NCBI GenBank assembly: GCA_024682415.1
Contig: JAIKZG010000031.1
Location: 19,923 to 83,922, forward strand
Direction of reading: 5' to 3'
Length of the DNA stretch: 64,000 nucleotides
DNA from: Prevotella sp.
Lineage (GTDB): Bacteria; Bacteroidota; Bacteroidia; Bacteroidales; Bacteroidaceae
The notes under the pieces were generated by a model. That model was not told the origin of the DNA. It saw nothing but the letters and a program-made list of their open reading frames with translations, and searched no databases. Position numbers and translations under genes: made by a program. Positions 14,201 through 64,000 of the stretch are shown here, piece after piece. The stretch's first letter is position 1; each line of letters begins with the position of its first letter.

Positions 14201-14320
14201 AGTACCTGCCGCCCTTAGCAAACCTGCCGTCATGCATTGTGGGGCTATCATCAAGCCCGCACTTGCCATCACCAAAGCTGCGACCCTTTGCGATGAGCAT
14301 TTCAATAAATCTTTTCTCAT
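11255..14320 (-). CDS. SusC/RagA family TonB-linked outer membrane protein
   Basis: 'RRVSGTVVDANGEPVIGATVREVG' carboxypeptidase-regulatory-like domain; 'DEVVVVGYGVQKKSDVTGSV'; 'PYIVVDGVPIS'. Confidence 0.95.
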   Translation of the reverse strand: MRKDLLKCSSQRVAALVMASAGLMIAPQCMTAGLLRAAGTESIAAQAGQQRRVSGTVVDANGEPVIGATVREVGNAKNGVITDIDGNFSINVPSGAKLEVSYVGYQTSIVAANAARNVTLKEDAALVDEVVVVGYGVQKKSDVTGSVTSIRKERLEKLPVSNVLQAVQGTAAGVTIQQSSAIPGDAPSALVRGQNSINANSGPYIVVDGVPISKAGGSLNDINPGDIESMEILKDASATAIYGMNGANGVILITTKHGSDGKPKISYNGYLGIEDFTNKLNFCNGEQITQRYKDYVAQNAGETMINEFVKNQYEVENQAAGKETDWIDEATQTGIIQNHNVSINGGAEHVKYFISGDYMNQKGLLKGYNYKRYSMRTNIDMDVTDYMRVGTNTYVVSHNKDGGRVNFVMAESMSPYAKEFNDDGTYCIYPMYSETLFTNPMLGTTQKHERRQWNINLNGYAEISFGKIWKPLRGLKYKFNFGYAYVTNRNSYYNGRLQNNNTGYGEIFNGDTQTYTAENILSYARDFGKHHIDLTGLYAASRKKYNDNTAKASKFINDNLLWYNLGSGETPEVASYADLYTTCSQMGRVNYSYDSRYLFTFTVRRDGSSVFSKGNKWGTFPSVALGWNITNESFMEKATEWMNNLKLRLSYGKAGNEAIGVYQTLSKMNTAMLAMNGAANAALIPSDAMGNSGLSWETTKTFNVGLDFGFLNNRINGTLDVYFSKTTDLLLRRNLPKVSGFNSVYSNMGETKNTGVELTINSKNIVTKDFTWSSNLVWSWNKNEIIDLYGDKQSDLGNRWFIGNPIGVIYDYKKVGIWQEDEIARGDHLQVDPIAKPGDVKLADLDGDHQITDGDRRVIGQTTPKWIGGLTNTFTYKDFTLSFFIQTTQGIMRNNALIAMAGDEMGRRNTTTEIGYWTPENKSNEWRSLRKDSNPHGYGFPQKAAYTRLKDVTLSYTFPKNITDMLHIGGLQLYVSGRNLVTWTDWTGWDPESSEIQRGWGGYENSYPMTKSYVFGVNLTF

Positions 14321-14571
14321 GTGTTACAAGGTTGGTCGTTATAAATTAAACGTTACGTTAGTTATTACAATTTTTTAATTGTTAATTTATTAGTTTTTTA
14401 TTTGATTAATTTAGTTATTTTGGGTTATTACTAGGCAAATATAAGATTTCTTTTTCAATCAGCAACATTTTTTTGCTAAAAATTTGGTAAGTCTTGTATC
14501 TTTCCGTTTTCTTTCTCGTGCTCCTTTTTATGATTTTGCACTCCACTTTTTACGGCAATTCCCCCTCAAAA

Positions 14572-14699
14572 GTTGAAAAAGTGGCAATTTTGAGCGAAAA
14601 TCGGTTGGAAAAACGGCAAATTTTCCCATTTTTCGGTTGGAAAAGTGACAAAAATCGCCAAAATTCGGTTGGAAAAGTGGATTTTTACTATCTTTGCTA
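14572..14699 (+). repeat. 32-bp-period tandem repeat (4 units) upstream of AAA ATPase
   Basis: GTTGgAAAAG-type units start at 14572, 14604, 14636 and 14668 (exact 32-bp spacing); last unit contains a TAnnTTTG box (TATCTTTG). Confidence 0.8.
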
Positions 14700-14728
14700 C
14701 ATATAAACGATATAAATATCAACTCGTT

Positions 14729-16084
14729 ATGCTAAGAAGGAAGATTGATAAGATTATCAGCGATTTTTATAATAATGAGAAGAAAGCCCTTCTCATTACA
14801 GGAGCGCGCCAAATCGGGAAATCATTCTCTATAAGGGAATATGGCAAGAAACATTTTAAAAGATATGTAGAGATAAATTTCATCAAGACGCCTAACGCAA
14901 CAAGCATTTTCAAAAGCTATACCGACAGCAACGACATCCTGCTGCGCTTGTCTGCATTTTCAGACGAACCGCTCATTAAAGGCGACACCTTTATATTCTT
15001 CGATGAAGTGCAGGCGTGCCCGGAAGTTGTGACCGCCATTAAATTCTTAGTAGAAGACGGCAGTTATCGCTATGCGCTCAGCGGTTCTATGCTTGGCGTA
15101 GAGCTTAAAGATTTGCGTTCTGCTCCAGTAGGATATATGGATATTGAGAATATGTATCCTCTTGATTTTGAGGAGTTCTTAATGGCGATAGGAGTAAACG
15201 ACGATGTCATCAGCTCCGTGCGCAACGCATGGGAAAATCGTATTCCTGTAGACAGCTTTATCCACGACAGATTAATCAATGCTTTCCGACTATATCTTGT
15301 TGTCGGCGGTATGCCTGACGTAGTAAACAGATATATAGAAAGCAACGACTTGAATCAAGTGATGAATGTGCAGAATGAGATTCTCAAGCTATATAAGGTT
15401 GATGCCACTCAATACGACAAAGAGGAGAAGCTGAACATCAATGAAGTGTTCGACATCATTCCGTCGGAACTAAACTCTAAGAACAAGCGATTCATTTTGA
15501 AGAACCTTAATGAGAAAAGCAAGTTCCGCAAATATGAGGATAGTTTCCTTTGGCTGAAAAACGCCGGTGTAGCTCTTCCTGTCTACAATGCCGAAGAGCC
15601 TAAAACGCCATTGGTGCTTGCTCGTACGAGGAGTCTGTTTAAGCTGTTTCAGAACGACGTCGGGTTGCTCGCTGCCCAATATGCTGATGGCATTCAGCTA
15701 AAAATCATCAGTGGCGACGACGATATTAATTTCGGTGCGATATATGAGAATGTCGTGGCACAGGAGCTTACCGCTCACGGCTTCGGACAACTCTATTATT
15801 ATAACAACAAGAAGCAGGGCGAACTTGATTTCGTGATTGAGCATAACGACAGAGTTTTGCCGATAGAAGTAAAATCAGGCAAAGATTACAAACGCCACAG
15901 AGCATTGAATAACATCATGTCTATGGATGAATACGACATCAATGACGCAATAGTATTGAGCAACGAGAATCTCTCTACAGAAGGAAACATCCTCTATGCT
16001 CCCATATACATGACAATGTTTATAACAAAGAAAAGAATTCAATCACCATTGATTTACAAATTTGATTTAGATGGTTTGAAATAA
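14729..16084 (+). CDS. AAA-family ATP-binding protein with DUF4143-like C-terminal domain
   Basis: 'ALLITGARQIGKSFSIREYG' Walker A; 'DTFIFFDEVQACPEVVTAIKFL' Walker B; 'GELDFVIEHNDRVLPIEVKSGKDYKRH' nuclease-like motif; first ATG at 14729. Confidence 0.88.
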   Translation: MLRRKIDKIISDFYNNEKKALLITGARQIGKSFSIREYGKKHFKRYVEINFIKTPNATSIFKSYTDSNDILLRLSAFSDEPLIKGDTFIFFDEVQACPEVVTAIKFLVEDGSYRYALSGSMLGVELKDLRSAPVGYMDIENMYPLDFEEFLMAIGVNDDVISSVRNAWENRIPVDSFIHDRLINAFRLYLVVGGMPDVVNRYIESNDLNQVMNVQNEILKLYKVDATQYDKEEKLNINEVFDIIPSELNSKNKRFILKNLNEKSKFRKYEDSFLWLKNAGVALPVYNAEEPKTPLVLARTRSLFKLFQNDVGLLAAQYADGIQLKIISGDDDINFGAIYENVVAQELTAHGFGQLYYYNNKKQGELDFVIEHNDRVLPIEVKSGKDYKRHRALNNIMSMDEYDINDAIVLSNENLSTEGNILYAPIYMTMFITKKRIQSPLIYKFDLDGLK

Positions 16085-16123
16085 ACTCCTCGCCATACTA
16101 TTAATCAATCTCAATATCTCGTT

Positions 16124-16187
16124 ATCCTAACGCTGTTAGAACGCCATTCGAACGATGTTCTAACAGCGTTAGGATTGCGTTTTTTTT
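16124..16187 (+). terminator. Strong intrinsic terminator followed by T8/G8 homopolymers
   Basis: Perfect 19-bp inverted repeat ATCCTAACGCTGTTAGAAC (16124-16142) / GTTCTAACAGCGTTAGGAT (16157-16175), then T8 and a G8 tract to 16195. Confidence 0.85.
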
Positions 16188-16502
16188 GGGGGGGGAATGA
16201 CAAGAATCGATTTTTAATCACAAAATTAGTATTATTGTGGATAATATACTTTGCATGGTGTTACTTATTATTTTTCTCACGATACAAAGCTTTTAAAATG
16301 CTTTTAAAACCATGCGAAAAAGCTCGAAAACCGAGTAAAATATTTAAACATGGTGAGTTTAAATATTTCATCATTAGTAATCACCACCTTAATTTTACCG
16401 AAAAACTTGTATAGCAACGTATTAAGAATTTCTAAGAAGCGGATTAAACTACATATATTGTAAATATTAAAATGTTAATGGTTGCAAAATTCGAGGTTCG
16501 TA

Positions 16503-16953
16503 GAAATTTCTTGGCGACCGAAAATCAAACTTGATTGGAGCTGGAAATTCCTTGGCGAAGCAAAATCAAACTTGATTGAGTTTGGAAATTCCTTGGCGAC
16601 ACGAAAGCAAACTTGATTGAGCGTAGAGATTCCTCAGCGAAGCAAAAGCAAACTTGATTGGACTTAGAGATTCCTTGGCGAAGCAAAATCAAACTTGATT
16701 GAGTTTGGAAATTCCTTGGCGACCGAAAATCAAACTTGATTGTAGCTGGAAATTCCTTGGCGACACGAAAGCAAACTTGATTGAGCGTAGAGATTCCTTG
16801 GCGACACGAAAGCAAACTTGATTGGACTTGGAAATTCCTCAGCGGAGCAAAAGCAAACTTGATTGAGCGTAGAGATTCATTGACGACACGAAACCAAACT
16901 TGATTGAGCGTAGAGATTCCTTGGCGAAGCGAAACTCAACTTGAACAGCATAA
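16503..16953. repeat. 41-bp tandem repeat array 1 (11 units, last degenerate)
   Basis: GAAATTCCTTGGCGAMRCRAAAKCAAACTTGATTGRRSNTR units start at 16503, 16544, 16585, 16626, 16667, 16708, 16749, 16790, 16831, 16872 and 16913; every spacing is exactly 41. Confidence 0.97.
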
Positions 16954-16995
16954 AAAAATGGCTCATACACGATGTTTCATGTATGAGCCATTTTT
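16954..16995. terminator. Bidirectional hairpin terminator
   Basis: AAAAATGGCTCATACA / TGTATGAGCCATTTTT. Confidence 0.8.
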
Positions 16996-17010
16996 ATTAT
17001 AACAAGCATT

Positions 17011-18513
17011 TTACAGATACTTGCTGAAATCCGTCAGGTGCATGTCGCCCTGCTTTAGGAATGTATCATGGAAAGCGAAGGCTGCCGTCATGCTCTGCGG
17101 CTCATGACCGCTCGCGGCGATATGAAGATACTCACGGAGGAGAGGACGGTAATCGGGGTGAGCACAGTTTTCTATTATCTCGTGCGCACGATGAAGAGGG
17201 CCCTTTCCACGGAGGTCGGCAACGCCCTGCTCGGTGATGATGACATCTACATCATGCTCTGTGCTGTCGATATGAGAGCACATTGGCACGATGGCACTTA
17301 TCACGCCCCCTTTAGCAACGGAAGGAGTATAGAAAATGGTGAGAGAACCGTTGCGCGCGTAGTCGCACGAACCGCCAATACCGTTCATAAGTGTAGAGCC
17401 ACACACATGGCTGGAATTCTCATTGCCATAGATGTCGCACTCCAAAGCCGTGTTCATGGCAATGACACCGAAACGACGGATAAGCTCCGGAGAATTGGCA
17501 AGCTCGCTCGGACGCAGGGTGATATGCTTGCTGAAGAAGTCGATATTGTCGTAAACATGTTGCAGGCACTCGTTGGTGACGGTGAGAGCGGTGCAGTTGG
17601 CATGATCTATCTGTCCGTTCTCAATCATGCGGATTACAGCGTCTTGAGAAACCTCGCTGAACACGTTCATCACAGGCAGCCCCTTACACTCGCTGATAGC
17701 GGAAAGCACGGCATTGCCCGTAGCCCCCACTCCGCTTTGTATGGGGAAGAAGTCGGCAGGGATATGCCCCGCCTTCTGATCCCTCAACAGAAATTCAGCC
17801 ACATTCTGCCCGATGGCTCTCGTGGCATCATCCACATCCTTGAAAGAACGAGCCTCCTCGGGGATGTTGCTCTCCACCACGCCGACCACCTTTGACGCGT
17901 CGATCTCCACAAAAGGAGAGCCGAAACGGTCGTCGAGACGCATCATAGGTATCGGTTCACGGTTGGGATACTCCTTAAATTCATAAACATCATGCAACTT
18001 ATATGATTCCGGGCTGTGAAATCTGTTCAACTCAATGATAATTCTCTCTGCCAACCTCACTATGGTGGGCACAATGCCCTCAGCGGAAGTCAGCGCAACC
18101 TTGTATTTATCGCCCACTCTCTCAATAGACGACACCTCAATGAAAGCCCAATCGATCTTTCCATAATACCCACGGCGAAGACGCTCGCCCACATGCCCGA
18201 GGTGCATGTCCTCATATTCTATCTCTCCCAAATTGGTGTGGGTGCGGAAATCCTTGTTAGTAGAAAACGGCGCGCGGAATTTCAGCGCGTGAGCCTTGGC
18301 GAAATCTCCCTCAAGACTCTGACACGACGAAGCCCCCGTAATCATTCCTATGGCAAACGGACGACCCTGCTCATGCAGAGTGACAGCACGCTTGGAAAGC
18401 TCGCGCGCCACAGCCTTTGCCACGCCATTAGGAGTGAAGCCGCTGAAAGCGATTGTCGCTCCGTCGGAAATCATCGCTGCGCCCTCGGCAGCCGTCAACT
18501 TAATATAATCCAT
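17011..18513 (-). CDS. Acetyl-CoA hydrolase/transferase family protein (probable succinyl-CoA:acetate CoA-transferase)
   Basis: 'IAFSGFTPNGVAKAVARELSKRA', 'SGVGATGNAVLSAI', 'DVDVIITEQGVADLRGKGPLHRA'. Confidence 0.88.
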   Translation of the reverse strand: MDYIKLTAAEGAAMISDGATIAFSGFTPNGVAKAVARELSKRAVTLHEQGRPFAIGMITGASSCQSLEGDFAKAHALKFRAPFSTNKDFRTHTNLGEIEYEDMHLGHVGERLRRGYYGKIDWAFIEVSSIERVGDKYKVALTSAEGIVPTIVRLAERIIIELNRFHSPESYKLHDVYEFKEYPNREPIPMMRLDDRFGSPFVEIDASKVVGVVESNIPEEARSFKDVDDATRAIGQNVAEFLLRDQKAGHIPADFFPIQSGVGATGNAVLSAISECKGLPVMNVFSEVSQDAVIRMIENGQIDHANCTALTVTNECLQHVYDNIDFFSKHITLRPSELANSPELIRRFGVIAMNTALECDIYGNENSSHVCGSTLMNGIGGSCDYARNGSLTIFYTPSVAKGGVISAIVPMCSHIDSTEHDVDVIITEQGVADLRGKGPLHRAHEIIENCAHPDYRPLLREYLHIAASGHEPQSMTAAFAFHDTFLKQGDMHLTDFSKYL

Positions 18514-18642
18514 AAGCTATATGTGTATTTTTATTCTCTCTATTCGTTGTTTATGACCACAAAGATACACATATTTTTCATTTTTCAAAATAAATATGCA
18601 AATAAAGTTATTATAATGGATTTATATGCAATAAATAAAAAA

Positions 18643-18671
18643 GAATGAAGAGCCTGAGAAGCCCTTCATTC
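18643..18671. terminator. Hairpin terminator
   Basis: GAATGAAG ... CTTCATTC. Confidence 0.5.
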
Positions 18672-18720
18672 GTCTACTAAAGCTATGAACAAATCTTGTT
18701 ATTATGGAAATTTTATGACC

Positions 18721-20199
18721 TTATCTGATTTTGTTTTCCACGTCGAACCACAAACGAGTAGTAAGCTCGTCGCTCCCCTGCTGCCCCACCGCATCACGAT
18801 AGTTCTCGCCATTAAGGGATTGCTCCGTGTCGGGATAGAACAGGCGGCGAGGAAGCTCATCTCCGTCGAGCACGGATGAAGCCCCAGCCACAAGATGAGG
18901 ATAGCCCAGACGGCGCCAATCGGTAAAAGCGTCGGGAGCCTGACCATAATAAGCTATCCACTTCTGCCATCCTATCAACTCTGCCCAGCGTGAGGAATTG
19001 TAAGCCACATCGGGCTGAGAAAGATAAGCCTCTACCACAGCATTATCCGTAATGCCATATTGAGCAAGCGAAGCCTTGATGCCCTCCTTATACCACGCTT
19101 CGGCATCAGCATTGATAAATCCGCGCGCTGCCGACTCGGCGAAAATCTGCGCCACCTCTGAATAAGTGAAGAACACGGCAGGCGCATCATCCGCAAGGAA
19201 ATATTTGCCAGGCAACGAAAGATTATAGAAGCCTTGACTGTTGGCAGCATCGGCCGACAAACCGTTGCCCGCACCTTGATAGGTGGTGATATTCTCGTTT
19301 TGCGGCAACTGCGCGAATATAGGCAGACGAGGATCAGCCACCGATTTAAGTTTCTCGATAAGCGTCTTCGACACTCGCTGATCATCACGGGTAGCGAAAG
19401 CCTCAGCCCACGGATTCCACTGAGGGGAAGAAGTGAACACAAATCTTGCGTTATCATCATTAGAGCTTATCAGATTTTCACGGTCGGCATACAGCTCCGC
19501 AATCACGCTCTTTGCCGCTGCCTCATCTCTGTCGGCTATTTCCAAGGCAATGCGAAGACGCAGAGAATTAGCGAATTTGCGCCATCGCGACAAGTTGCCG
19601 CCAAAGACTAAGTCGCCCTCCACTTTCTCGCCCGAAACGGAAAGACCGTTGGCTGCGTCGGTCAGTTCTGTGAGCAATGAGCGAAGCACCTCTTCCTGAG
19701 CGTCGTATTTAGGAGTTATCGTCTTGCCATACTCGCTATATGGTATGTTGCCATATAGATTAGTAAGCTGAAGGAAAGTCCACGCGCGCCATATACGAGC
19801 CACATTCTTAATATTGTCGTTGCTCAGTTCCGATTTTATTATAGCGTCGGCATCAGCTATGACGGAAGCGTATGCTGTGTTCCATGTCTGCGTGAAGTCG
19901 TCATTGGAAACATTATAGCAGTCGGGCTCGGTGTATTGTATTTTCGCCCAATGCTGCACCCAAAGAAGTGTAGAGTTGTAGTTCAAATCATTTCCCCAAA
20001 ACCACTCTGCTGAATGATACTCCACGGCTGAAAGCAGATAAGCAGGCTGCGGATTTTCAGTTGCGTTAGGGTTTTTGTTTATATCTTCAAGACTGTCGCT
20101 GCATGAAGCCGAGACGACAGCCAAGGCTACTGCCGAGCCACGCAACAACGCTGCGGTAACCGACTTTATATTTTTTATTCCGACCATATTAATATTCAA
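18721..20199 (-). CDS. SusD-like (SusD/RagB) outer membrane lipoprotein
   Basis: 'VVSASCSDSLEDINKNPNA' lipobox and SusD_2-like N-terminus; 'RIWRAWTFLQLTNLYGNIPYSE'; paired with upstream SusC. Confidence 0.88.
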   Translation of the reverse strand: MNINMVGIKNIKSVTAALLRGSAVALAVVSASCSDSLEDINKNPNATENPQPAYLLSAVEYHSAEWFWGNDLNYNSTLLWVQHWAKIQYTEPDCYNVSNDDFTQTWNTAYASVIADADAIIKSELSNDNIKNVARIWRAWTFLQLTNLYGNIPYSEYGKTITPKYDAQEEVLRSLLTELTDAANGLSVSGEKVEGDLVFGGNLSRWRKFANSLRLRIALEIADRDEAAAKSVIAELYADRENLISSNDDNARFVFTSSPQWNPWAEAFATRDDQRVSKTLIEKLKSVADPRLPIFAQLPQNENITTYQGAGNGLSADAANSQGFYNLSLPGKYFLADDAPAVFFTYSEVAQIFAESAARGFINADAEAWYKEGIKASLAQYGITDNAVVEAYLSQPDVAYNSSRWAELIGWQKWIAYYGQAPDAFTDWRRLGYPHLVAGASSVLDGDELPRRLFYPDTEQSLNGENYRDAVGQQGSDELTTRLWFDVENKIR

Positions 20200-46865: not shown

Positions 46866-47789
46866 ATGATAAGACATTATGACGAAATCAAAGGGACAAA
46901 GCAAAAGCTTTATGAGACAGCCATCTGTAAAGGCTATCTGACGAACTACAATCGTGCGTGGCGACATTCTTTCGTAGGCGCATTCGTGATGAAACATCCG
47001 AGAAGGATTAACGTGCTCGACCGCCTGCAAAACATTCTCTCGCACGAACCTACTTGGAAGGATCTTACCGACGCTAATCTGAAAGACCTAAAAGACTGTC
47101 TTTCAGACAGCGTGTGCCAATCTACTCTGCACACCATGCTCGGCGAAATCAAGGCTTTCATCAATGAGAACAGATGGGAGCACAGGATTCCGTCGAAAGG
47201 ATATAAGCGTATTCTGACAGTGAGGAATGAGATTTCGCAAAGCACATTCCTCTCGGAGCGTGAGGTGAAAAGAATCTATCATTATCTGCCATGCAACAAA
47301 TCGGAGATGACAGTGAAGCGCATATTCCTGATAGAATGCCTGACGGGTGCGCGCTTTTCCGATGCGTGTAGGCTCTCCATTGCAAACGTAAGGGGCGACA
47401 TGCTGCAATATGTGCAGCAGAAGACGAAGCGCGAAGTGATATTGCCTCTCCATCGTGGGCTTATCCCGCTGTTGGAAGAGAACGAAACTCCTTGCCACAT
47501 CACTTCTAAGATGAACGCCACACTGCGCACAATATGCAGAAAATGCGGAATAAAGGAGCGAATGACTCTCTTTCGCCATGGCGAGAACATCACGGCGGAG
47601 AAATGGCAGTTTATCACCTCTCACTGCGGACGCAAATCCTTTGCCACCAATCTTTATCTTCGTGGTGTGGACATTCTCACGATAAGCAGAATGATGGGAC
47701 ATTCGAGCGTGAAGATGACGGAAAGATATATTGTGGGCAACAGAAAGATAAGTCCTGCCGCCTTAAAATTTTTCAGAGAGGAATTATGA
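46866..47789 (+). CDS. Tyrosine-type site-specific recombinase
   Basis: 'LIECLTGARFSDACRLSIANV' (Arg I), 'FITSHCGRKSFATNLYLRGVDILTISRMMGHSSVKMTERYIV' (H-R-H-Y). Confidence 0.93.
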   Translation: MIRHYDEIKGTKQKLYETAICKGYLTNYNRAWRHSFVGAFVMKHPRRINVLDRLQNILSHEPTWKDLTDANLKDLKDCLSDSVCQSTLHTMLGEIKAFINENRWEHRIPSKGYKRILTVRNEISQSTFLSEREVKRIYHYLPCNKSEMTVKRIFLIECLTGARFSDACRLSIANVRGDMLQYVQQKTKREVILPLHRGLIPLLEENETPCHITSKMNATLRTICRKCGIKERMTLFRHGENITAEKWQFITSHCGRKSFATNLYLRGVDILTISRMMGHSSVKMTERYIVGNRKISPAALKFFREEL

Positions 47790-47827
47790 TGGTACGAATT
47801 ACTTCAAGAATTTGAAAGCAACAAAAA

Positions 47828-47862
47828 AACGGTTTTAGAAGGCGCTCCTCCTAAAACCGTTT
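47828..47862. terminator. Hairpin terminator between convergent recombinase and fimbrial operon
   Basis: AACGGTTTTAG / CTAAAACCGTT. Confidence 0.8.
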
Positions 47863-47881: not shown

Positions 47882-48664
47882 TTAAATTGTTGCTTGTTTT
47901 ATATATAGTGTATCAACTTTATTCTCTGTTAATTCCATATTGCCAGTAAGTGTATAGCGATAGTTCTTTTCTCCTATCCTATAATATATAGTTCTGCCTG
48001 CCGTTATTGTCTGAGGCGGCAAAAGCAACTCAAACGCATGATTAGCTACATCAGGGCAAGCCTCAATATAGCCAGTTATGGCATCTTCAGGCACTTTCAC
48101 AGTATTGTCGCTCGCGAAATACACAAGTGTATCGCTCGGCACCTGCATACTTACATCTGTCTCCGCAAATGCCGGAACAATAACGCATAGCTTTGCCATC
48201 TTATGGGTAAATGTAATAGTAGCATCTGCCTTATGCGCTACATTATCTACTTTTCCATAAAGATAGTCAAACGCCTTGAAACCATTCTCCTGATGAGAGA
48301 TGCAGACGGTGTCGCCACTTCCGGCAGGATAACGAGCCACAACATTAGCCGTAGTTGAAACAGAGGGCCAATATAATCCTGAAACAACAGATGTTTCGCC
48401 TAATGAATTTATAACTTCATAAACTCCTGTATCTTTTACAGATGTAGAATTAAATGTAACAAAGACATCAAGCAACTCAGTACCATCACCAGTCCAAGCA
48501 TCCATACCACTAACTGTTCGTGTTGAACCTCCAACCGAACACACCAAGCCAAGAGCCTGCGGTCTGTCTTTATCTATCGCCTGTTCCATATCATCAGAAG
48601 AGCAAGCAACAACCATTGCCGACAACATTGATGCCATTATATATTTAGTTATTTTCATTTCCAT
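47882..48664 (-). CDS. Fimbrillin family lipoprotein
   Basis: Lipobox 'VVACSSDD'; 'GGSTRTVSGMDAWTGDG'; 'ITFTHKMAKLCVIV' fimbrillin motif. Confidence 0.82.
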   Translation of the reverse strand: MEMKITKYIMASMLSAMVVACSSDDMEQAIDKDRPQALGLVCSVGGSTRTVSGMDAWTGDGTELLDVFVTFNSTSVKDTGVYEVINSLGETSVVSGLYWPSVSTTANVVARYPAGSGDTVCISHQENGFKAFDYLYGKVDNVAHKADATITFTHKMAKLCVIVPAFAETDVSMQVPSDTLVYFASDNTVKVPEDAITGYIEACPDVANHAFELLLPPQTITAGRTIYYRIGEKNYRYTLTGNMELTENKVDTLYIKQATI

Positions 48665-48683
48665 AATTCCAAGAGTTTGATAG

Positions 48684-50180
48684 TTACTTTACAAGTGGAG
48701 TATATACAGGACGAATAGTACAACCATAGAACACACGAGTAGCCGCTAGATTAACCTTATTTACATTAGTCCAGGAAAGTTGATATGCCATTTTAGAAGC
48801 CTCAAGCGTAGATGACCAATATTTTCCCATTGTTCCAACATTTTTAATACTGGTACCATTATAATTACTACCTGCAGGAAAAATTATACTATTTCCATTT
48901 ATTTTTGAGGTAAATAACATTCCGTGATTAGTTGCATCCCATGAATACGTACAATTATCCATTAATTCTCTAAATTCGGTATATGTCGGTATATGCCAAG
49001 TAGAATGCCATTTTCTTGCTGCTATATCATAATCCTCATTACCAACCCATTCACGATTAATGTTATTAAAGTCCGCAATACCACCATCATATTCATAAGC
49101 ATTTGTATAGGGATTTTCAGTTGCATGAACATACGTAGCTTCGGAATAATTATCTTTTGTAGCAATTTCTCCCCACGCATAATAATCACCATAATCACTT
49201 ATTGATGCCGCACCGACATTTCTATCAGCCCAAAGTGTGCCTGACGGAAGACCTAAATCTACAAACTTATATAAACCGAGAGAATCATAATTCACATTAG
49301 ATGCTGTATCATTCTCAGTCCATGCATCAATAGTGCTTGCGACAACCTTGACTGTCGTCGCTCCCACAGACAAATCGAAACTATATGCACCACCTGCCTC
49401 AATTGTCATAGGAGATGATAAAGAAGCCGTCCAGCCTGTTGTTGCCCCCTTGAATTTACCTACGATGGAGATTAAAGAATCTCCATCGTCATAAGTGCCT
49501 GGTGCAACGATTGCTGTGTACGTGTGCAGACTGTCTTCTGTTTCGTCTCTTGTCACAAGACAATTCACCTTTGTTTCTCCTCCTGTGCTAATAGTAATAC
49601 CAGTAGAAGGAGTGATTGTCGTAGGATGGAAAATATCAGCCGTGCTGAACGCTGGCTTAGAGCCACCCAAATTTTCGTCGTATTTGATAATCTTCACCGT
49701 AACTTTTGCCATCTGGTGCGTAAACTCCAAAGGCACTTTATTGTCGGTGGGCTGGTTAAGAGTTGCAGATGCAGTCATGAAGTCAGCCTTATTGAGAGAG
49801 TCCTCAGTAGTTTGATTTGCGGGCACGGTAAAAGATATTGGCGTTGTCGACGGATTTGTCGCTGTTGCCGGATAAAAGGCTTTATATGTGTTTTCACCAT
49901 CGAGCCAAAGCAAATAAGACGAAGCATCGGGTGCCCACGATGTACCATCATAGACAAACAATCCTGTGCGATTGTCGTTAGAACGCACGAGCTTAATACT
50001 ATCACCGGCACTCCATGTCGCTCCGTCGGCATTGCTGTTAAGGCGTGTCGCTGGTGCTATCGAGGCTTTCACTCCGACTACTCCTCCCGAATGCAGCGGA
50101 TTTGTCCCGACATCATCACTCTGACATGCTGTAAACAATGCCATCGCAATAGAGATTATTATATAATTCGTTAGCTTCAT
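48684..50180 (-). CDS. Fimbrillin family lipoprotein with C-terminal FISUMP domain (candidate tip adhesin)
   Basis: 'FTACQSDD'; 'IAPATRLNSNADGATWSAGDSI'; 'LEFTHQMAKVTVKI'; C-terminal 'YKFVDLGLPSGTLWADRNVGA...YYAWGE...WHIPTYTEFREL...YWSSTLE'. Confidence 0.88.
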   Translation of the reverse strand: MKLTNYIIISIAMALFTACQSDDVGTNPLHSGGVVGVKASIAPATRLNSNADGATWSAGDSIKLVRSNDNRTGLFVYDGTSWAPDASSYLLWLDGENTYKAFYPATATNPSTTPISFTVPANQTTEDSLNKADFMTASATLNQPTDNKVPLEFTHQMAKVTVKIIKYDENLGGSKPAFSTADIFHPTTITPSTGITISTGGETKVNCLVTRDETEDSLHTYTAIVAPGTYDDGDSLISIVGKFKGATTGWTASLSSPMTIEAGGAYSFDLSVGATTVKVVASTIDAWTENDTASNVNYDSLGLYKFVDLGLPSGTLWADRNVGAASISDYGDYYAWGEIATKDNYSEATYVHATENPYTNAYEYDGGIADFNNINREWVGNEDYDIAARKWHSTWHIPTYTEFRELMDNCTYSWDATNHGMLFTSKINGNSIIFPAGSNYNGTSIKNVGTMGKYWSSTLEASKMAYQLSWTNVNKVNLAATRVFYGCTIRPVYTPLVK

Positions 50181-50254
50181 TTCTTTCGCTTTTAATAAAC
50201 ATTACGCATTTGTTGATAATAGAGCATGTTACCATGCCCAAACCTTCAAATCAC

Positions 50255-51229
50255 CTAATGTCGGTTAAGATATTCACTGTTCTCGGCTGTTCCGCTCTTT
50301 ATTGTATCGCGCTGCCAGTCAAGAATGTGCACATTATTGAAATATATGGTATCCTTACCAACTGTCACGTCGAAAGTATAAGCCTTTCCTGCCACAAGTC
50401 CTTCTGTAAGAATAGACGTACCCTTGATGGTGAAACGTTCAACAAGCTTCTTTGCCGTGCCAGGCTCTATGAAGTTGTTGTCGGTAAGCTCGGCAAAGAA
50501 ATTGGTTTCCGAACCTTGATCATACTTACCAGGAGCAAGGATTGCGGTATAGGTGTTCTTATTGTCTGTACCATCAGTCTTCAACGCTGTAACCTTATTG
50601 CTTGTCGGCAATGTTATTGTCTTTGATGAAGTCTGAGTAGCAGGCAAATTGAATGTTACCACGTCAAAATTAGGAGATTTAGCGGCATATCTGTTTTTGA
50701 ACTCCACGATACGTAATCTCACCTTTACCATTTCATGCTTAAAGTTGAGCGACAGTTTTCCTTCAGTTCCTTCTGCCGCTGACGCACTTGCCGTCATATA
50801 ATCGGCAGCTTTCAATTTATCAGCCGTGCTTTGATCTTCAGGGAGAGTAAACGCAGTGTATGATGTCGTAGTTACGGCAGCGTCATAAGGATAGAAAGCC
50901 TCAAACGAATTTGTGCCGTCTGCTCCGTCAGCCCAAACTACATAATTCGGATAATCCGTAGTAAGGCTCTGACTCCATGCAGTGCCATTATAGGCGTATA
51001 CACCATCTTTCTTACCTGTTACGGCATTTGTCGATACATTTGAAACAAAGATTTTATCACCTGAATCCCAAGTATCGCCAGTCAAGTTAGAGTTCACACG
51101 CGTCTGTGGAGCTATCCTTGCCTCCACTCTTACCGTACCATCACTCTTTGCCACATAGTCGTCATCGGCACAGGCGGCAAGCGACAGCAACGCAAGCGAT
51201 GCTATGAATATATTATTATGTTTTTTCAT
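50255..51229 (-). CDS. Fimbrillin family lipoprotein
   Basis: 'LAACADDD'; 'IAPQTRVNSNLTGDTWDSGDKI'; 'LNFKHEMVKVRLRI'. Confidence 0.88.
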   Translation of the reverse strand: MKKHNNIFIASLALLSLAACADDDYVAKSDGTVRVEARIAPQTRVNSNLTGDTWDSGDKIFVSNVSTNAVTGKKDGVYAYNGTAWSQSLTTDYPNYVVWADGADGTNSFEAFYPYDAAVTTTSYTAFTLPEDQSTADKLKAADYMTASASAAEGTEGKLSLNFKHEMVKVRLRIVEFKNRYAAKSPNFDVVTFNLPATQTSSKTITLPTSNKVTALKTDGTDNKNTYTAILAPGKYDQGSETNFFAELTDNNFIEPGTAKKLVERFTIKGTSILTEGLVAGKAYTFDVTVGKDTIYFNNVHILDWQRDTIKSGTAENSEYLNRH

Positions 51230-51242
51230 AACCTATAAGCTT

Positions 51243-52178
51243 TTATTCAGTTTTTAATGTTCCTCCGTTCTTTACCGTCCAAGCTGTTGCTTTAATTTCG
51301 CCATCACGAACGATATCACGGCTAACCTTCAAAGGCAAACGATAAGACCATCCCTGCTTGAAAATCAAATCTTCATCACTTTCGTACACATAAGTCTGAC
51401 CATTATTTGCATAAACTTCTACCACAAGAGTCTTAGCGTAAGTCTGTGGTATAAGCACGCCTTCAAATTCAAGTTCACCGACTTTATAAAGCATAACCGA
51501 GTCTGTTTGAGCAGCCAAGTCTGCAGCATTTAACAAACCTGTTTCAATATCAAATGTCGAAGAATTACCTGTACATGCCTTTACCTTAACACTATCTATT
51601 TCTACCGTTGCAACTTCTGATCCTAGTTTCAAACCGACATATAGTTTAGATAATGCATGCTTAAAAGTCACATCAATGCCAACTGTTGAAGCCTCTGTAC
51701 TATCAAGTTTTGCATACAGGAAATCAGAAGCCACGACATTTGAAATAACACGCTGATCTTTCTGCACAGAAACAGCAAAATCATGTTTTAATGTAGAATC
51801 AGTCAACACTGCACTTGAACTATATGGCATATACGCAATGTAATAAACCTTTGAATCTGCACTCTTCCACAATAGCTGTGTACCATTTGCTGCAGCCCAT
51901 TTACCTGCACTGTAAGCTATTTCCAGATTAGTCGCGCCATAGCGTCCGCTGCCTGTCTTGCCCTGAGCTTTGTTTTCAGCATTGAGGAACAATCCAAACG
52001 TGCTTGCCTGCAAATCAGCGTCGGTATCATATCCCACACGCGACGTTGAAGCTACGCCCACATTAATATTAATTGGTTTGTCTGTCATATCAACAATGAC
52101 ATCCGCACCATCATCGCTGCTGCAACTATATAACGTCATTGTCGCCAAAGCTGCCAATATGAATATATTCTTTTTCAT
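51243..52178 (-). CDS. Fimbrillin family lipoprotein
   Basis: 'LYSCSSDDG'; 'VASTSRVGYDTDADLQASTFGLFL'; 'VTFKHALSKLYVGL'. Confidence 0.88.
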   Translation of the reverse strand: MKKNIFILAALATMTLYSCSSDDGADVIVDMTDKPININVGVASTSRVGYDTDADLQASTFGLFLNAENKAQGKTGSGRYGATNLEIAYSAGKWAAANGTQLLWKSADSKVYYIAYMPYSSSAVLTDSTLKHDFAVSVQKDQRVISNVVASDFLYAKLDSTEASTVGIDVTFKHALSKLYVGLKLGSEVATVEIDSVKVKACTGNSSTFDIETGLLNAADLAAQTDSVMLYKVGELEFEGVLIPQTYAKTLVVEVYANNGQTYVYESDEDLIFKQGWSYRLPLKVSRDIVRDGEIKATAWTVKNGGTLKTE

Positions 52179-52250
52179 CGTTGTCTATCTTTTATAGTTA
52201 TTTATTAAGGATAATAACTCCTCATTCGGTATTAAGAGAAGTAAGTGTTT

Positions 52251-53183
52251 TTAAGATTCTTCAGCTCTGTAAACTGTCGTAACGTTCGTTTCCGTCCAGT
52301 CGCCTACCGAAACGCTCAATACCTTTATGGTATCCTTACCTATCTCAATACTGAAAGTATATTCCTTACCTGTCTCAAGCGTCAGCGCCGAAGGAAGAAG
52401 AACCTTCAACAGGTCGCTGCCCACCATGATAGAAAGAATCTGATCACCAGTGGCATAAGAGCCAAGAGGCATGATAGCGATTATCTTAGCGTTTGCATTC
52501 AGCGCAACGCTCGTACTGCTCGCATTATTATCATCGCGTATGTAAGCCTTTACAGACGTTGCCCCTGTTTCCATCGTCTCGCCTATTGAGCTGAGCGTAG
52601 TTGGAAGACTGTAAACAGCATTTGAAAGAATCTCCGCGCCATTATATTGGTCTCTGAACGAGGTTACATTGATATTAATCTTAGCGAGCTTGTGATTAAA
52701 CGTGAGATTAAGCTTATTCTTATTAGTATTCGCCACATTAGCCTCAGCCGTCATCCAGTCGCACTTACGCAACTTTGCCTGATCAGACTGGTCGCCATTA
52801 ACAACAAACGATGTGAATGTAGTCGTAGCCACATCAGAAGGATACCATGCCTGGAATTGATTTATCTGTATGCTATCCTTCGACCACAACATATAGTCAG
52901 AACCAGTCAGGTCGAACTTATTGCCATCGTGAAGATAAGTTGCTACACTTTTTCTGTCTACGGCGTCGGGTCCTAAGTTCTTAACCGTGAACTGGTCGCC
53001 AGAAGTCCATGCGTTGCCTGTTCCCTCTGTTGTAACGCGCGACATTCCTTCGAGGTCAGCGTTTACTATAACCTTAGCTCTACCCTCGTCGATGCCGGCT
53101 ACATCATTGTCACTCTGGCACGAAGTCAGAGCCAATGCCGATGTAGCAGCTGCCAAAATAAGATATTTACCATAGATTTTCAT
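52251..53183 (-). CDS. Fimbrillin family lipoprotein
   Basis: 'LTSCQSDND'; 'LEGMSRVTTEGTGNAWTSGDQF'; 'LTFNHKLAKININV'. Confidence 0.88.
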   Translation of the reverse strand: MKIYGKYLILAAATSALALTSCQSDNDVAGIDEGRAKVIVNADLEGMSRVTTEGTGNAWTSGDQFTVKNLGPDAVDRKSVATYLHDGNKFDLTGSDYMLWSKDSIQINQFQAWYPSDVATTTFTSFVVNGDQSDQAKLRKCDWMTAEANVANTNKNKLNLTFNHKLAKININVTSFRDQYNGAEILSNAVYSLPTTLSSIGETMETGATSVKAYIRDDNNASSTSVALNANAKIIAIMPLGSYATGDQILSIMVGSDLLKVLLPSALTLETGKEYTFSIEIGKDTIKVLSVSVGDWTETNVTTVYRAEES

Positions 53184-53207
53184 ACTCTTTATTTTTTAAG
53201 GGTTAGG

Positions 53208-54137
53208 TTATAATGTTTCTCCGTTCACAGCGGTCTGTTCAACCCATGCGGTAGCCGTAACATTACCCATCACGACTTTGTCTCGTCCGATGATGACAGA
53301 GATGTTCTGCTGCGAACCTACGGCTGGAGCTGAAGCCAATGTGATAGTGCAAGGGAACGTTCTGTCCGTTCCGTTCACATTCACAGTGAATGTAACGTTG
53401 AATGTATCAGTCGTTCCATCAGGGATTATCACTGCTTCTGCCGTCTTGTTTGTATTGTCGATATAAGCAGAAATATTGCCTGTTACTGTAGTTGATGCGG
53501 TTAGAGCTGCGTCATTAACATAATCCACAACTGCCTCCAACGGCAAAGCAGTATTAAAATACAACTTACCTATATTTATAGTTCCTTCAAGCTCATTGGC
53601 ATAAGTCCATGTAAACTTCAACTTTGCGAATTTATGATTAAATGCGATAGGGAGTTTGCCACCTGTTTCAGGATCTACGTTAGTCGCCTTGTAATATAAA
53701 AAGTCAGACTTCTTGATATTAGCGTCCGTAGTCTGATCGGTCTGCACCTTTACAGTGCCTGAAGCAAGAGCCGTACCATAAGTTAAAGTTTCATTGTCAG
53801 TCAAAGTGTAAGCGATAACAGTAGCCTTAGGAGCATCATTCTTCCATATCAGCGTGTCGTTAGTGTTGCCTACTGTCCACGCATCGCCTGTAGTAGGAGC
53901 TTTCATAGCTACAGAACTGTAGTTATAGCTGGATGTAGCGTCGGCTGCGTCCTGCGTTATGAAAAGCGCGAATGAGTCTGGCAAATTGCTGTTATCAAAG
54001 CCGGCGCGCGTCTTCACGCCTGCTTCCACGACAATGTTTTTCTGCGTCGTCTTCTGTACGGGCAGGTCTTCATTGCCGGCACATCCGGTGAGTACTGCGA
54101 CTCCAAGTGCGATCATAAGATTAGCATATTTTCCCAT
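53208..54137 (-). CDS. Fimbrillin family lipoprotein
   Basis: 'LTGCAGNED'; 'AGVKTRAGFDNSNLPDSFALFI'; 'IAFNHKFAKLKFTW'. Confidence 0.88.
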   Translation of the reverse strand: MGKYANLMIALGVAVLTGCAGNEDLPVQKTTQKNIVVEAGVKTRAGFDNSNLPDSFALFITQDAADATSSYNYSSVAMKAPTTGDAWTVGNTNDTLIWKNDAPKATVIAYTLTDNETLTYGTALASGTVKVQTDQTTDANIKKSDFLYYKATNVDPETGGKLPIAFNHKFAKLKFTWTYANELEGTINIGKLYFNTALPLEAVVDYVNDAALTASTTVTGNISAYIDNTNKTAEAVIIPDGTTDTFNVTFTVNVNGTDRTFPCTITLASAPAVGSQQNISVIIGRDKVVMGNVTATAWVEQTAVNGETL

Positions 54138-54239: not shown

Positions 54240-55121
54240 CTAAAGAGCTTCACCTCCGCCTTCGGAGATTATCTCGCCTTCTGTCCATTCGTCGAGAGTG
54301 ACATAATGGAAATGAATGTAAGGCATCAACTGGCTGTAAGTCATATTAATCACATAAGTGCCTCCTGCATCCATTCGAGGAGCGTCAGCGTCAATCTCCG
54401 TCTTCTGTCCGTTGGCAAGAGTGAGAGTGAAGTGGAAACGCATCGTCTCATAATCTATGCTTGTAGGCATGAGCATTATCGGTCCGCTTGTTATCAAGCT
54501 GTCGGCGCCTGCTGTCGCTGCCGGCATATTAACAATAGTGCTGTCTGATGAAGGAACTCCATGGGTTTTACCATCAGCAGCAAGTCTGCCAGGATAAAAT
54601 CCCTCAGCAACGCAATGCACTTCGGTATTCAGCACCGCTCCCACAGGCACTCCCGTAACGTTTATCGTCAGGGTGGCGAGCATCGGCTGCATATCTATCA
54701 TTTCCTGTGAAATACTTTTCCCATTCATGCTTACCTCGGTTTCGCCGTAATATACCTGTTCAGGCGAAGAACTCGGATCTGTCATTTTTATCATCAAGTC
54801 GTTCAGCCCTGTGCCGATAGTAGAAAAAGCATTACCAAGACCAGATGTTACAATTATGGTATATTTACCGTTAGGCAACAACGTAAGCCCGGAAGAAGCA
54901 CCAGCTGCATCAGCATATTCATTATGCTCCTGCATCGTGCCTTCGGAATTGAATATCCAGACGTCCACGCCTTTGCCCTCCTCATCATCGTCTATCCCTG
55001 CCGGCCATTCTATACCGAGGGCAAGCGACGGTGAATGCAGTTCATGCTCCTCAGAGCAAGAGCCAAACGCAAACATGAGCGTAGCCGACATTAAGGCACA
55101 AAAGATATGTTTTGTTTTCAT
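54240..55121 (-). CDS. FimB/Mfa2 family fimbrial anchor subunit
   Basis: 'FGSCSEEHELHSPSLALGIEWPAGIDDDEEGKGVDVWIFNSEGTMQEHNEYADA...LLPNGKYTIIVTSGLGNAF' Mfa2-like arrangement. Confidence 0.85.
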   Translation of the reverse strand: MKTKHIFCALMSATLMFAFGSCSEEHELHSPSLALGIEWPAGIDDDEEGKGVDVWIFNSEGTMQEHNEYADAAGASSGLTLLPNGKYTIIVTSGLGNAFSTIGTGLNDLMIKMTDPSSSPEQVYYGETEVSMNGKSISQEMIDMQPMLATLTINVTGVPVGAVLNTEVHCVAEGFYPGRLAADGKTHGVPSSDSTIVNMPAATAGADSLITSGPIMLMPTSIDYETMRFHFTLTLANGQKTEIDADAPRMDAGGTYVINMTYSQLMPYIHFHYVTLDEWTEGEIISEGGGEAL

Positions 55122-55891
55122 GGGCGCGCCTCCTTAGTTAGTTTTCCTACTCTGCTTGCTGCCTCAGGAATAGAGAAAGTAAGCCTCAATCCGCTTTCCC
55201 ATAGCACTCTGGTCTTATGCCAGTCGTAAGGCACGCCGTCGAAATGGCGTCCCATCACGAAACCAATGCCTGTGTAAGCACCCAATGAAACAGTTTTGTT
55301 TAGCTGATAGTTGCCTTGCAATCGTCCACCTACAGTTAGGTGCCAATGAGTGTCGTCGCTATAGAGAACGTCGCTGCCTTTAATCTTCTTAATTTTGGCA
55401 GTTGTTCCTATAGTTGTAACCTCAGGTGAGATTTCCGCTGTCCACCTGCTGTCCTTAGTCGATGGTATCAGCCCAAGGACATTTACATTCAACTTCACTC
55501 CATATTGCTGCATAAATACATGGCTCATAAGTTCGGAATAATTTGCTCCCGTCTTCCCCCGCACCGGTGCATAGTAACTATTGCCCTCATTGTCGAGCCA
55601 CATGTTGGCATTCACGCAACACTGGCGTGCCGACAGGCGAAACATACCCCAACGAGCAGAAGGTTCGAGAGAAATCACATTATTGAATCGGTATCCAATA
55701 AAGATAGCCCCATCCACCCCCGGACGAGTCTTATCCGCTCCGAAACTACTGAAAGTATTAGCTGCGAATGGCACTCCGGCCTCCACGCCCACATACCAAT
55801 GAGTACGTGAGCCATCAGATTCCGACTGACCAAAGGCAGTAACTAATCCACTAACCAAGCAAAACAGTAAAATAAAAAATCTTCTGTTCAT
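55118..55891 (-). CDS. DUF3575 domain-containing outer membrane protein
   Basis: Signal peptide; beta-barrel-like 'NVISLEPSARWGMFRLSARQCCVNANMWLD'; first gene of the fimbrial operon. Confidence 0.75.
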   Translation of the reverse strand: MNRRFFILLFCLVSGLVTAFGQSESDGSRTHWYVGVEAGVPFAANTFSSFGADKTRPGVDGAIFIGYRFNNVISLEPSARWGMFRLSARQCCVNANMWLDNEGNSYYAPVRGKTGANYSELMSHVFMQQYGVKLNVNVLGLIPSTKDSRWTAEISPEVTTIGTTAKIKKIKGSDVLYSDDTHWHLTVGGRLQGNYQLNKTVSLGAYTGIGFVMGRHFDGVPYDWHKTRVLWESGLRLTFSIPEAASRVGKLTKEARP

Positions 55892-55988
55892 ATTGTTTAG
55901 TTGTTTTGGTTATTGAAGCAAATATAAAATAAATACAATATCGTGTCAAGGCTTTTTTGCGAAAAATTTCGTTTTTTTAATACAAAAC

Positions 55989-57236
55989 TCAATTTTTGTG
56001 TGTCGCAAGATAGAAAGCCGTGGCATTTTTGCCCACTGTCCTTGCGTTAACCGAAGGCCATGAGATAGTCAATCCTGAATAAGAGTTTATCACTCTCACA
56101 CTTGGTGAAGAAAGAGCTGTATAGTATCTGGCTGTAGCCGATTTATAAGGCACAGCCTTAGCCAGCTGAGTTTTAAACTTACTTAAAAGAGCCGCGTCCG
56201 GGCACAAATGCTCCACATAGTCGCCATAATCGAAGAAAATCGTAGGAGTGTAGCCGTCCATTGTCTGAAGATTTCCACGCTCAGCATTATTAAATGTATA
56301 GATTGTGTCAATCTCAAGCATGATAGAAGCAAGCTCATCAAGCTCCGCCGTCTTTGTTACAGCAATCGTTCCATAAGGATATTGATAATTTGTATAGAAG
56401 TTATAAAACTCATCACATATATTCTTATAATCAGGGGTCTTCGATGAAAGCTGTCCCCATATCTTTGTATAAGGCATGCCGTAAGCCATGATTTCCGTAG
56501 GGCAGGCTATCATATAGTCGGTCACGTCTTTCAGGTCGTAAGCCGTTTCCACGTTAGACATATTGCAGTCGTCGAACAATATATACTGCATCTTAATGCC
56601 CGCTGCGGCGATGCCGTCGGCGAGAGTAGAGATATTTGTCTTTATCTGAGTGCCGCCAAAGCTGGTGAGCTTATGCCCCTGCATCTTTGTCACCACGCCC
56701 TGCACTGCTCGCGTGTCATCATCATCCTGCAAAGAAAATCCCTTCGCTCCATAAGCATTCCAGTCGGCTTCATCTATCCATCCCCATCCATGGCTGCCTA
56801 TTATCATGGAATAAGTCTGCGCCGGGGCGAACGATTTCACCTGATTCATGATATATGTTATCCAGTGCGTTTTGTTGAGAGCCATGTCACCATTGTTTTC
56901 GTAATCACGCAAAGGCTCGTCCACGCAATTTCCGTTCTTATATTTTATTTTATACAGCGAGCCATGGGTCATATCTTTCGACATGAACACAATCAAATCA
57001 GTCTTGCCCAGTCCGCCACGCGATACTATAGCCTCCTTTATGTCACTCAAGTTTTGTTTGAAGTTCTCTGTAAGCGGAGAATTGCTGCCTGTCCATGGGA
57101 AATATACAAACACTGTGTTTTCGGCTTTTTCCTCTGGTATGATTTTGTCGTCGTCATTATCGCTGCCGCAAGAAGCCAATCCCATGAGCAACAACCCGAT
57201 AAACATATAAAATGATAAAATTCCAAGTCTTTTCAT
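55989..57236 (-). CDS. Clostripain-family (C11) cysteine peptidase, lipoprotein
   Basis: Lipobox 'GLASCGSDND'; 'YSMIIGSHGWGW' (catalytic His) and 'QYILFDDCNMSNVETAYDL' (catalytic Cys). Confidence 0.88.
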   Translation of the reverse strand: MKRLGILSFYMFIGLLLMGLASCGSDNDDDKIIPEEKAENTVFVYFPWTGSNSPLTENFKQNLSDIKEAIVSRGGLGKTDLIVFMSKDMTHGSLYKIKYKNGNCVDEPLRDYENNGDMALNKTHWITYIMNQVKSFAPAQTYSMIIGSHGWGWIDEADWNAYGAKGFSLQDDDDTRAVQGVVTKMQGHKLTSFGGTQIKTNISTLADGIAAAGIKMQYILFDDCNMSNVETAYDLKDVTDYMIACPTEIMAYGMPYTKIWGQLSSKTPDYKNICDEFYNFYTNYQYPYGTIAVTKTAELDELASIMLEIDTIYTFNNAERGNLQTMDGYTPTIFFDYGDYVEHLCPDAALLSKFKTQLAKAVPYKSATARYYTALSSPSVRVINSYSGLTISWPSVNARTVGKNATAFYLATHKN

Positions 57237-57439
57237 ATTATATATAGTTTTTTATGTTTTTGTTCTTAATCTAAAGAGTTATACTTAGCAAATATAAGTC
57301 AAAAAGGGTATTCTCACAAAGCATTATTATGGAAAATCTTTATTTTTTGCTAAAAAACATATTACCTCATTATATTTTGTGCCACAAAAACAGCATTTTG
57401 ATTTATATTTGCCGGTAAGGGTAACTAAATGTTTAAATT

Positions 57440-62121: not shown

Positions 62122-63588
62122 ATGAAGAAACAATTATTATCTTTTATGTTTATGGCATTTTCTGCCACAGCATTTATTGCTTGCTCTTCTTCAGATGAAG
62201 CAGCAAATGAGCAAGGCAATCAACTGAAACTCTCTGCCGGAATTACGGCACAGAAAGAACCTTATAATATAGGCGAGTGGGGCACTGAAATTCAAATAGG
62301 TGATATAGAAGCAGCTATTGCCAAAGAGTTTAAGGTTGATACGACTGCAATAACTCGTACTCCATGCGATGATAGCAACTGGGCAGGAATGACAAATAGA
62401 AACATTGCAGTAAAAGTCGGGAGTACGGTTTACAAATATTCTGTAGACGCAAGCGGAAATCTCACAAGCAATGCGCCCTATTATTTCACGACTACAAGCA
62501 ATGTGAGTGTTGCTTCTTGGTATCCTTATACAACGACTTCGCTTACCTCATTCTCTGTTCAGAGTGACCAAACGAGCTACGCCAACAGAGAAAAGAGCGA
62601 TTTGCTTTATGGCGCAGCAACAGTTAATCAAGGCTCTGCCAACGTAATTTCTTATTCACATAAGGTTGCGAAGCTGATTGTTTCCGTAAAGGTAAACAAT
62701 ACACAGCATATTGCGAACGGCACGATTTCTAAACTCACGATGTCGGGCATTAAACTTTCGGGCACAGTTTCTAATGGTACTTTGACTGCAAGTGGAAGCA
62801 ATGGCACAATCACTTTGCACAATACCATAGCAAGTTCAACTTCGAATAACAATTCCACAGCAACATTTGAGGCTTACCTTATTCCGCAAACTTCTACTTC
62901 TACATTTGTGGTATCGGTTGGTGGAACAAATCTTTCTATTGCCGTGCCGAGCAAGACTTTCGTTGCTGGCAAAATCCATACTCTTGAACTTATATATAAT
63001 GTGGCAGGTAGTGGAACAGAGAATGGTCATGCTTGGGTAAGAATGGGAACGTCCGTGAAATGGGCAACGACCAATTTGGGCGCAAATAACGATTATAATA
63101 AGGGAAGCTATTATCAGTGGGGTGCAACAATCCCCACGGCTACATGTGATAACAATGATAATTTAACTATAGCTTATTCCGGAACAGATCCGTGGTCTTC
63201 TTCAAATAAATATGGTTACTGGAATGTTACTTATGATATAACGCCAACAAGCGGACATGACTGTGCTCGCATTCTATGGGGTGGCACATGGAGAATGCCA
63301 ACAAAAAGTGAGCAGCAGCAATTAATTGATAATTGTACATGGGAAAAAGTTGAATATCACTCAAAAACTTGTGCAAAGATAACGGCTAAGAATGGAAATG
63401 TTATGTATTGGCCTTTTGTTGGTTCTGTTAGAATTGGTAATGGTAATGATTGGGCTTTTCGTTATATGAATTCCACTTATGTAAAATCTCATTTATATGA
63501 TATTATGTGTTATGATGCAGACGCACCATCTTTCTCTCCTTCTGCCAATAAAGATTATGGGCGTGTAACTCGCCCAGTTCTTGATTAA
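62122..63588 (+). CDS. Fimbrillin-like lipoprotein with C-terminal FISUMP domain
   Basis: 'FIACSSSDEAANEQG'; 'VISYSHKVAKLIVSV' fimbrillin motif; 'VKWATTNLGANNDYNKGSYYQWGA...GGTWRMPTKSEQQQLIDNCTW' FISUMP. Confidence 0.85.
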   Translation: MKKQLLSFMFMAFSATAFIACSSSDEAANEQGNQLKLSAGITAQKEPYNIGEWGTEIQIGDIEAAIAKEFKVDTTAITRTPCDDSNWAGMTNRNIAVKVGSTVYKYSVDASGNLTSNAPYYFTTTSNVSVASWYPYTTTSLTSFSVQSDQTSYANREKSDLLYGAATVNQGSANVISYSHKVAKLIVSVKVNNTQHIANGTISKLTMSGIKLSGTVSNGTLTASGSNGTITLHNTIASSTSNNNSTATFEAYLIPQTSTSTFVVSVGGTNLSIAVPSKTFVAGKIHTLELIYNVAGSGTENGHAWVRMGTSVKWATTNLGANNDYNKGSYYQWGATIPTATCDNNDNLTIAYSGTDPWSSSNKYGYWNVTYDITPTSGHDCARILWGGTWRMPTKSEQQQLIDNCTWEKVEYHSKTCAKITAKNGNVMYWPFVGSVRIGNGNDWAFRYMNSTYVKSHLYDIMCYDADAPSFSPSANKDYGRVTRPVLD

Positions 63589-63675: not shown

Positions 63676-64000
63676 GAAATTCTTTGGCGGCTCTCAATCA
63701 AAGTTGAATGAAGTTAGAAATTCCTTGGCGACACGAAATCAAACGTGATTGGAGCTGGAGATTTCTTGGCGAAACGAAATCAAACCTGATTGGAGCTGGA
63801 AATTTCTTGGCGACACAAAACCAAACTTGATTGGAGCTGGAAATTCCTTGGCGACACAAAATCAAACCTGATTGGAGCTGGAAATTTCTTGGCGGCACGA
63901 AATCAAACTTGATTGAAACTGGAGATTTCTTGGCGACACGAAACCAAACTTGATTGGAGCTGGAAATTCCTTGGCGGCACGAAAGCAAACCTGATTGGAG
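63676..64000. repeat. 41-bp tandem repeat array 2 (8 units, runs off the window end)
   Basis: GARATTYCTTGGCGRCACRAAATCAAACYTGATTGGAGCTG units start at 63676, 63717, 63758, 63799, 63840, 63881, 63922 and 63963; exact 41-bp spacing. Confidence 0.97.

Follow-up and report, generated by a model that had tools for sequence, protein, structure and literature searches.

The reverse-strand gene at 55989-57236 of the window (the whole 64,000-nucleotide stretch of DNA that was analysed) is, judging from its translation, a C11 lipoprotein protease of a known kind, the iotapain (BT_0727-like) type. It is best understood as a general surface enzyme with fimbrillin precursors among its probable substrates, an account which, taken whole, we consider moderately probable. 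Its position next to a pilus operon had been read in an earlier note as a sign of a dedicated, co-encoded pilin-maturation protease; as a conserved feature this pairing is refuted, and the best explanation is that it is lineage-specific and not required for function.

The predicted protein (415 aa, ATG start) matched the Peptidase_C11 profile of Pfam (PF03415) with an E-value of 4.9e-18 and 66.2 bits, thus passing the family cut-off of 25.8 bits; this was its only Pfam match, and the C25 (gingipain) domain was absent. Catalytic His149 (56790-56792, in GSHGWGW) and Cys224 (56565-56567, in FDDCNMS) make up the His/Cys dyad, and the S1-pocket Asp222 (56571-56573), two residues before the Cys, is the counterpart of PmC11 Asp177 (role from PMC4850288); all three are conserved throughout the 60 orthologues and the 19 other C11 proteins aligned. 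The translation also contains a lipobox (LASC, with Cys23 at 57168-57170) followed by the acidic stretch SDNDDD, and a lipobox is likewise present in most C11 orthologues. The C11 peptidase with dyad and lipobox described in the earlier note was thereby recovered in every part, and the protein is probably exposed on the surface.

An AlphaFold2 model (pLDDT 88.2) has the predicted C11 fold, its top PDB matches being C11 enzymes. Its best Foldseek match was iotapain BT_0727 of Bacteroides thetaiotaomicron (6nag; TM(target) 0.94 and 43% identity along almost the full chain), which was also matched in sequence with an E-value of 1e-92 and 314 bits and which shares the dyad, the S1 Asp and the FDDC motif. 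With 6nag and its processed form 5l20 matched best and at high coverage, the protein falls into the iotapain subgroup. PmC11 of Parabacteroides merdae (3uws, 4yec; PMC4850288) resembles it in C11 fold, activation-loop cleavage and basic P1, but is cut at Lys147 and gave 106 bits with its large chain (3uws). Fragipain of B. fragilis (5dyn; PMC8406203), a C11 protease which cuts proproteins, both surface-bound and secreted, after Arg, belongs to another branch, with 33 bits to the window protein. Since C11 enzymes take Arg or Lys at P1 (PMC4850288), the strict Arg specificity that had been ascribed to clostripain was too narrow, although the acceptance of Arg stands; by analogy the window protein is expected to be proteolytically active and to cut after either residue.

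The pilus operon follows on the same strand after a gap of 97 bp, so that the earlier placement of the protease gene immediately upstream of the fimbrial genes is correct. Its first gene (55118-55891) encodes an OMP_b-brl outer-membrane protein (OMP; PF13505, 28.6 bits, 0.1 under the cut-off) and its second (54240-55121) an Mfa2-type anchor lipoprotein (PF08842, E-value 3.4e-12) with no Thr/Ser-Arg within 60 aa of the Cys. Six fimbrillins, all matching PF13149, come next: 53208-54137 (site KTR44|A, E-value 3.4e-22), 52251-53183 (MSR49|V, 1.6e-26), 51243-52178 (TSR47|V, 1.2e-32), 50255-51229 (QTR44|V, 1.4e-25), the long, tip-like protein at 48684-50180 (ATR46|L, 4e-27), which has a weak C-terminal FISUMP similarity (TIGR02145, 25 bits, under the cut-off), and the last gene of the operon at 47882-48664 (STR49|T, 1.4e-14). 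An Mfa2-type anchor together with Mfa_like_1 fimbrillins, lipoproteins with a basic cut site, identifies a type V pilus operon. It resembles the Bacteroidales operons of the FimA/Mfa1 kind in combining an anchor with multiple fimbrillins whose basic cut site is N-terminal, and differs from them in that the OMP stands first and the C11 gene lies outside the conserved module. A 16-nt inverted repeat at 47827-47862, terminator-like and possibly acting as such, follows the operon. Convergent with the operon, on the forward strand, is a gene for a XerC/D-like tyrosine recombinase of 307 aa (46866-47789; PF00589, E-value 1.8e-18); ORFs of 307 aa also occur at or near fimbrillins in two other loci (L183, L199), a likeness by size alone. 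An invertible promoter at the operon, which the recombinase had suggested, was rejected because no convincing flanking inverted repeats were found.

The Thr/Ser-Arg sites of the window fimbrillins, which fall at Arg44 to Arg49, are real, as the earlier note had supposed, and far more frequent than chance would give. Among the 40 lipobox fimbrillins of the window genome, 38 carry such a dipeptide within 60 aa of the lipid Cys, compared with a mean of 11.1 and a maximum of 20 in 500 shuffles, these counts not being independent as the set includes many recent paralogues; in most of them the site lies about 24 to 38 residues behind the lipidated Cys. Regarding the fimbrillins of relatives, 47 of 51 have Thr/Ser-Arg no more than 45 aa beyond the lipid Cys (shuffles 8.9, maximum 17), with Thr at P2 in 47/47 and mostly Ala at P1'. 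Only one of 14 anchors has the site. This distribution fits what maturation of the stalk and tip pilins, and not of the lipid-held anchor, would predict, and Mfa1 of Porphyromonas gingivalis is cut at Arg49 (PMC5954841). A single-sequence fold of a fimbrillin was uninformative (pLDDT 35).

In P. gingivalis the surface Arg proteases RgpA and RgpB are needed for Mfa1 polymerisation (PMC5954841), but these are members of family C25, and the window genome has a single C25-family protein, which is no gingipain but PorU, the sortase of the T9SS. A gingipain was accordingly dropped as candidate pilin protease in this genome, and the view that a non-gingipain protease is needed was supported. One C11 gene was detected in the genome (87% complete), whereas its fimbrillin genes number about 40 (PF13149 gave 39 matches) versus 0 to 22 in 40 relatives; Thr/Ser-Arg sites also occur at the other fimbrillin loci examined in the window genome, which lack a C11 gene. 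With a single detected C11 set against some 40 fimbrillins scattered over many loci, and with PorU as the sole C25, a general enzyme is a better fit than a dedicated one. Of the earlier proposal of a pilin-maturation protease, the word 'dedicated' is thus not supported, and the remainder is plausible, given one detected C11 and no gingipain, sites in pilins and not in anchors, and a 2025 review in which cleavage of type V pilins is ascribed to the surface clostripain (PMC12632263). The mechanism linking C11 enzyme and pilin is therefore already published in outline.

In the preferred account, the iotapain-type enzyme would be held in the outer membrane by its lipid, probably on the cell surface, would be transcribed as a unit of its own, and would become active once the loop joining the catalytic His and Cys segments is cut. 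It would most likely act as a general surface-lipoprotein protease cutting after Arg (or Lys), with the approximately 40 fimbrillin precursors, cut after Thr/Ser-Arg, as probable substrates; cleavage would release the stalk and tip subunits into donor-strand assembly, the uncut anchor being spared. Fragipain, which cuts many surface lipoproteins and also Fab1 at R|A, offers a precedent, but the iotapain branch differs from that of fragipain (33 bits to 5dyn versus 314 to 6nag), which speaks against the account inasmuch as the functional papers cited concern fragipain. The identity of the protease that matures type V pilins outside Porphyromonas matters for gut and oral Bacteroidales alike. The Thr-Arg pattern (present in pilins, absent from anchors and present in the activation site of the C11 group, as described below) offers a short, direct test of the published statement on clostripain and pilins, and it implies that every pilin of the cell, not just those encoded next door, should be a substrate of the enzyme.

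The fimbrillin genes of the window genome comprise a nine-gene tandem on one contig (C3), a pair on another (C42) and about two dozen mostly solitary copies of approximately 480-590 aa, several of them at contig ends; they were seen at 47882-54137 and 62122-63588 of the window and in the loci L138, L139 and L163-L182.

Alternatively, the enzyme might serve surface or nutritional purposes (lipoprotein shedding, peptide scavenging, activation of secreted proteins) and have no role in the pilus, its pilins being matured by another protease. This is rather unlikely, yet several observations agree with it: the C11 gene is present in 116 of 130 near-complete genomes of the genus, it stands in housekeeping contexts (valS upstream in 16 of 60 orthologue loci and, probably, a tyrS-like gene in several others), and one genome (G398, 99% complete) has fimbrillins with a Thr-Arg site and no detectable C11 gene, so that either another protease can suffice there or its C11 was missed. 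The lack of a gingipain-like C25 besides PorU and the published attribution of type V pilin cleavage to the surface clostripain (PMC12632263) argue against it, as does the Thr-Arg seen both at the cut sites of pilins and at the activation site of C11 enzymes. Co-occurrence contributes little: at least three fimbrillins were found in 11 of 26 genus genomes with C11 versus one of 14 without (Fisher p 0.03, relatedness not controlled), a weak association that is confounded by relatedness.

In the orthologue group, Thr-Arg-aromatic-Phe-Gly-Gly closes the loop that joins the His segment to the Cys segment; this motif is common in the iotapain group without defining it. The second chain of 5l20 (chain B, beginning YFGG) starts one residue after this Arg, which is why Thr-Arg|aromatic is taken as the activation cut. 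The Arg is present in 42 of 43 C11 orthologues and absent from the window protein, in which L190-T191-S192 (56661-56669, reverse strand, placed by orthologue alignment) occupy the position of Thr-Arg-aromatic; where iotapain BT_0727 has TR|YFGG, the window protein reads LTSFGG and has a longer loop. Activation of the enzyme is uncertain because this near-invariant Arg is missing. The protein matches 50 of the 52 columns that are at least 90% conserved, and both departures are at the activation site (Leu190-Thr191 for Thr-Arg); as the remaining conserved columns are intact, decay is unlikely. Basic residues left in the loop are R176, K184 and K189. The best guess for a substitute activation cut is Arg176 (56709-56711, reverse strand), which stands in DDDDTR|AVQG, i.e., Asp-Thr-Arg176|Ala-Val, within a stretch (residues 165-190) with pLDDT below 50 in the AlphaFold2 model. 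The Thr-Arg common to the activation site of the group and to the pilins suggests that enzymes of this kind prefer Thr-Arg. Three small points are new here: the Thr-Arg contrast between pilins and anchors, the sharing of the motif by the C11 group, and its loss in this one enzyme.

That the protein can no longer activate itself, and either lingers as a zymogen or is activated in trans, would account for the confinement of its only departures among the 52 conserved columns to the two activation-site positions. We regard this as quite improbable, since the other 50 columns, the dyad and the S1 Asp are kept as in an active enzyme and DTR176|AV is at hand in the same low-confidence loop.

The dedicated protease proposed in the earlier note, co-encoded with this pilus operon, has in its favour that the gene lies 97 bp upstream on the same strand and that the pilins carry Thr/Ser-Arg sites. 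The conservation of the neighbourhood in other genomes, whose absence that note had named as a refutation, was examined in 60 C11 orthologue neighbourhoods (40 from 301 family genomes and 20 from 398 genus genomes, at most 9 kb per side). Self-built OMP, anchor and fimbrillin profiles, from which signal peptides were removed and in which relatives were included, recover these genes in the window; run on the 60 orthologue loci and on 20 loci of other C11 genes, they revealed no OMP, anchor or fimbrillin in any of the 60 orthologue neighbourhoods. Two marginal fimbrillin matches near C11 genes (L037, L052; E-value 1e-4) are not fimbrillins by Pfam. Conversely, relatives of the pilus OMP were found in 17 other genomes of the genus, and no C11 gene was present in 18/18 of their loci. 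In nearly all of these 18 loci (16 of them) the anchor comes after the OMP, with fimbrillins next in nearly every such case; because none of the 18 has a C11 gene, the conserved pilus module starts at the OMP and excludes C11. Among the PF08842 and PF13149 matches listed for 41 genomes, an anchor or fimbrillin near a C11 gene occurred only in the window genome. Where a genome has both a C11 orthologue and the OMP (nine cases), the two genes are either 675 kb apart or on separate contigs.

A pattern scan gave 13 Bacteroides-type promoter motifs in the window versus 2.0 in shuffles (-7 consensus TANNTTTGY; PMC12632263). One of them (57288-57319, reverse strand; TTG, spacer, TATATTTGC) would serve the C11 gene, and a separate one (55918-55949, reverse strand), in the gap between C11 and OMP, would serve the pilus operon; the latter argues against co-transcription of the C11 and pilus genes. 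Together with the same kind of site at fimbrillin loci that have no C11 gene, these results leave the dedicated reading very unlikely.

The closest relative of the window C11 protein is that of Hoylesella enoeca (54% identity), and H. pleuritidis is also among the nearest named relatives, on which grounds the window genome is called Prevotella-like; no relative closer than 54% identity, which might reveal the origin of the pairing, was found in the genomes searched. In both Hoylesella species the C11 gene starts 2 bp after valS, and it follows valS directly in the 16 orthologue loci noted above and a tyrS-like gene in several others (such loci include L118, L213, L045 and L054). In the window genome rnz, a 197-aa gene, mazG and valS stand together on another contig with no C11 gene; because this block sits elsewhere, the C11 gene appears to have changed place in the lineage, or to have been lost and regained.

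A further possibility, that the gene moved from behind valS to the pilus operon and the enzyme became specialised for pilins, giving up its own activation cut for a loop DTR|AV which resembles the pilin maturation site (in which case enzyme activation and pilin processing would both rest on a single type of cleavage), is highly unlikely.

A second, independent C11-fimbrial neighbourhood was seen among the 80 C11 loci, about as many as chance might produce: in a genome of another genus (L079 in G028, 8920-18802, reverse strand), three near-identical DUF4906 lipoproteins (GGSTR sites) and one fimbrillin (TTR|G) precede a different C11 gene (PF03415, 179 bits), all genes being on one strand. In the window itself, divergent from the C11 gene, 57440-59257 encodes a lipoprotein with a Cthe_2159-type carbohydrate-binding domain and poly-Asp after the lipid Cys, and a short ORF at 63698-64000, repeating 'SCRQGISSSNQVWF', is probably no gene but a DNA repeat.
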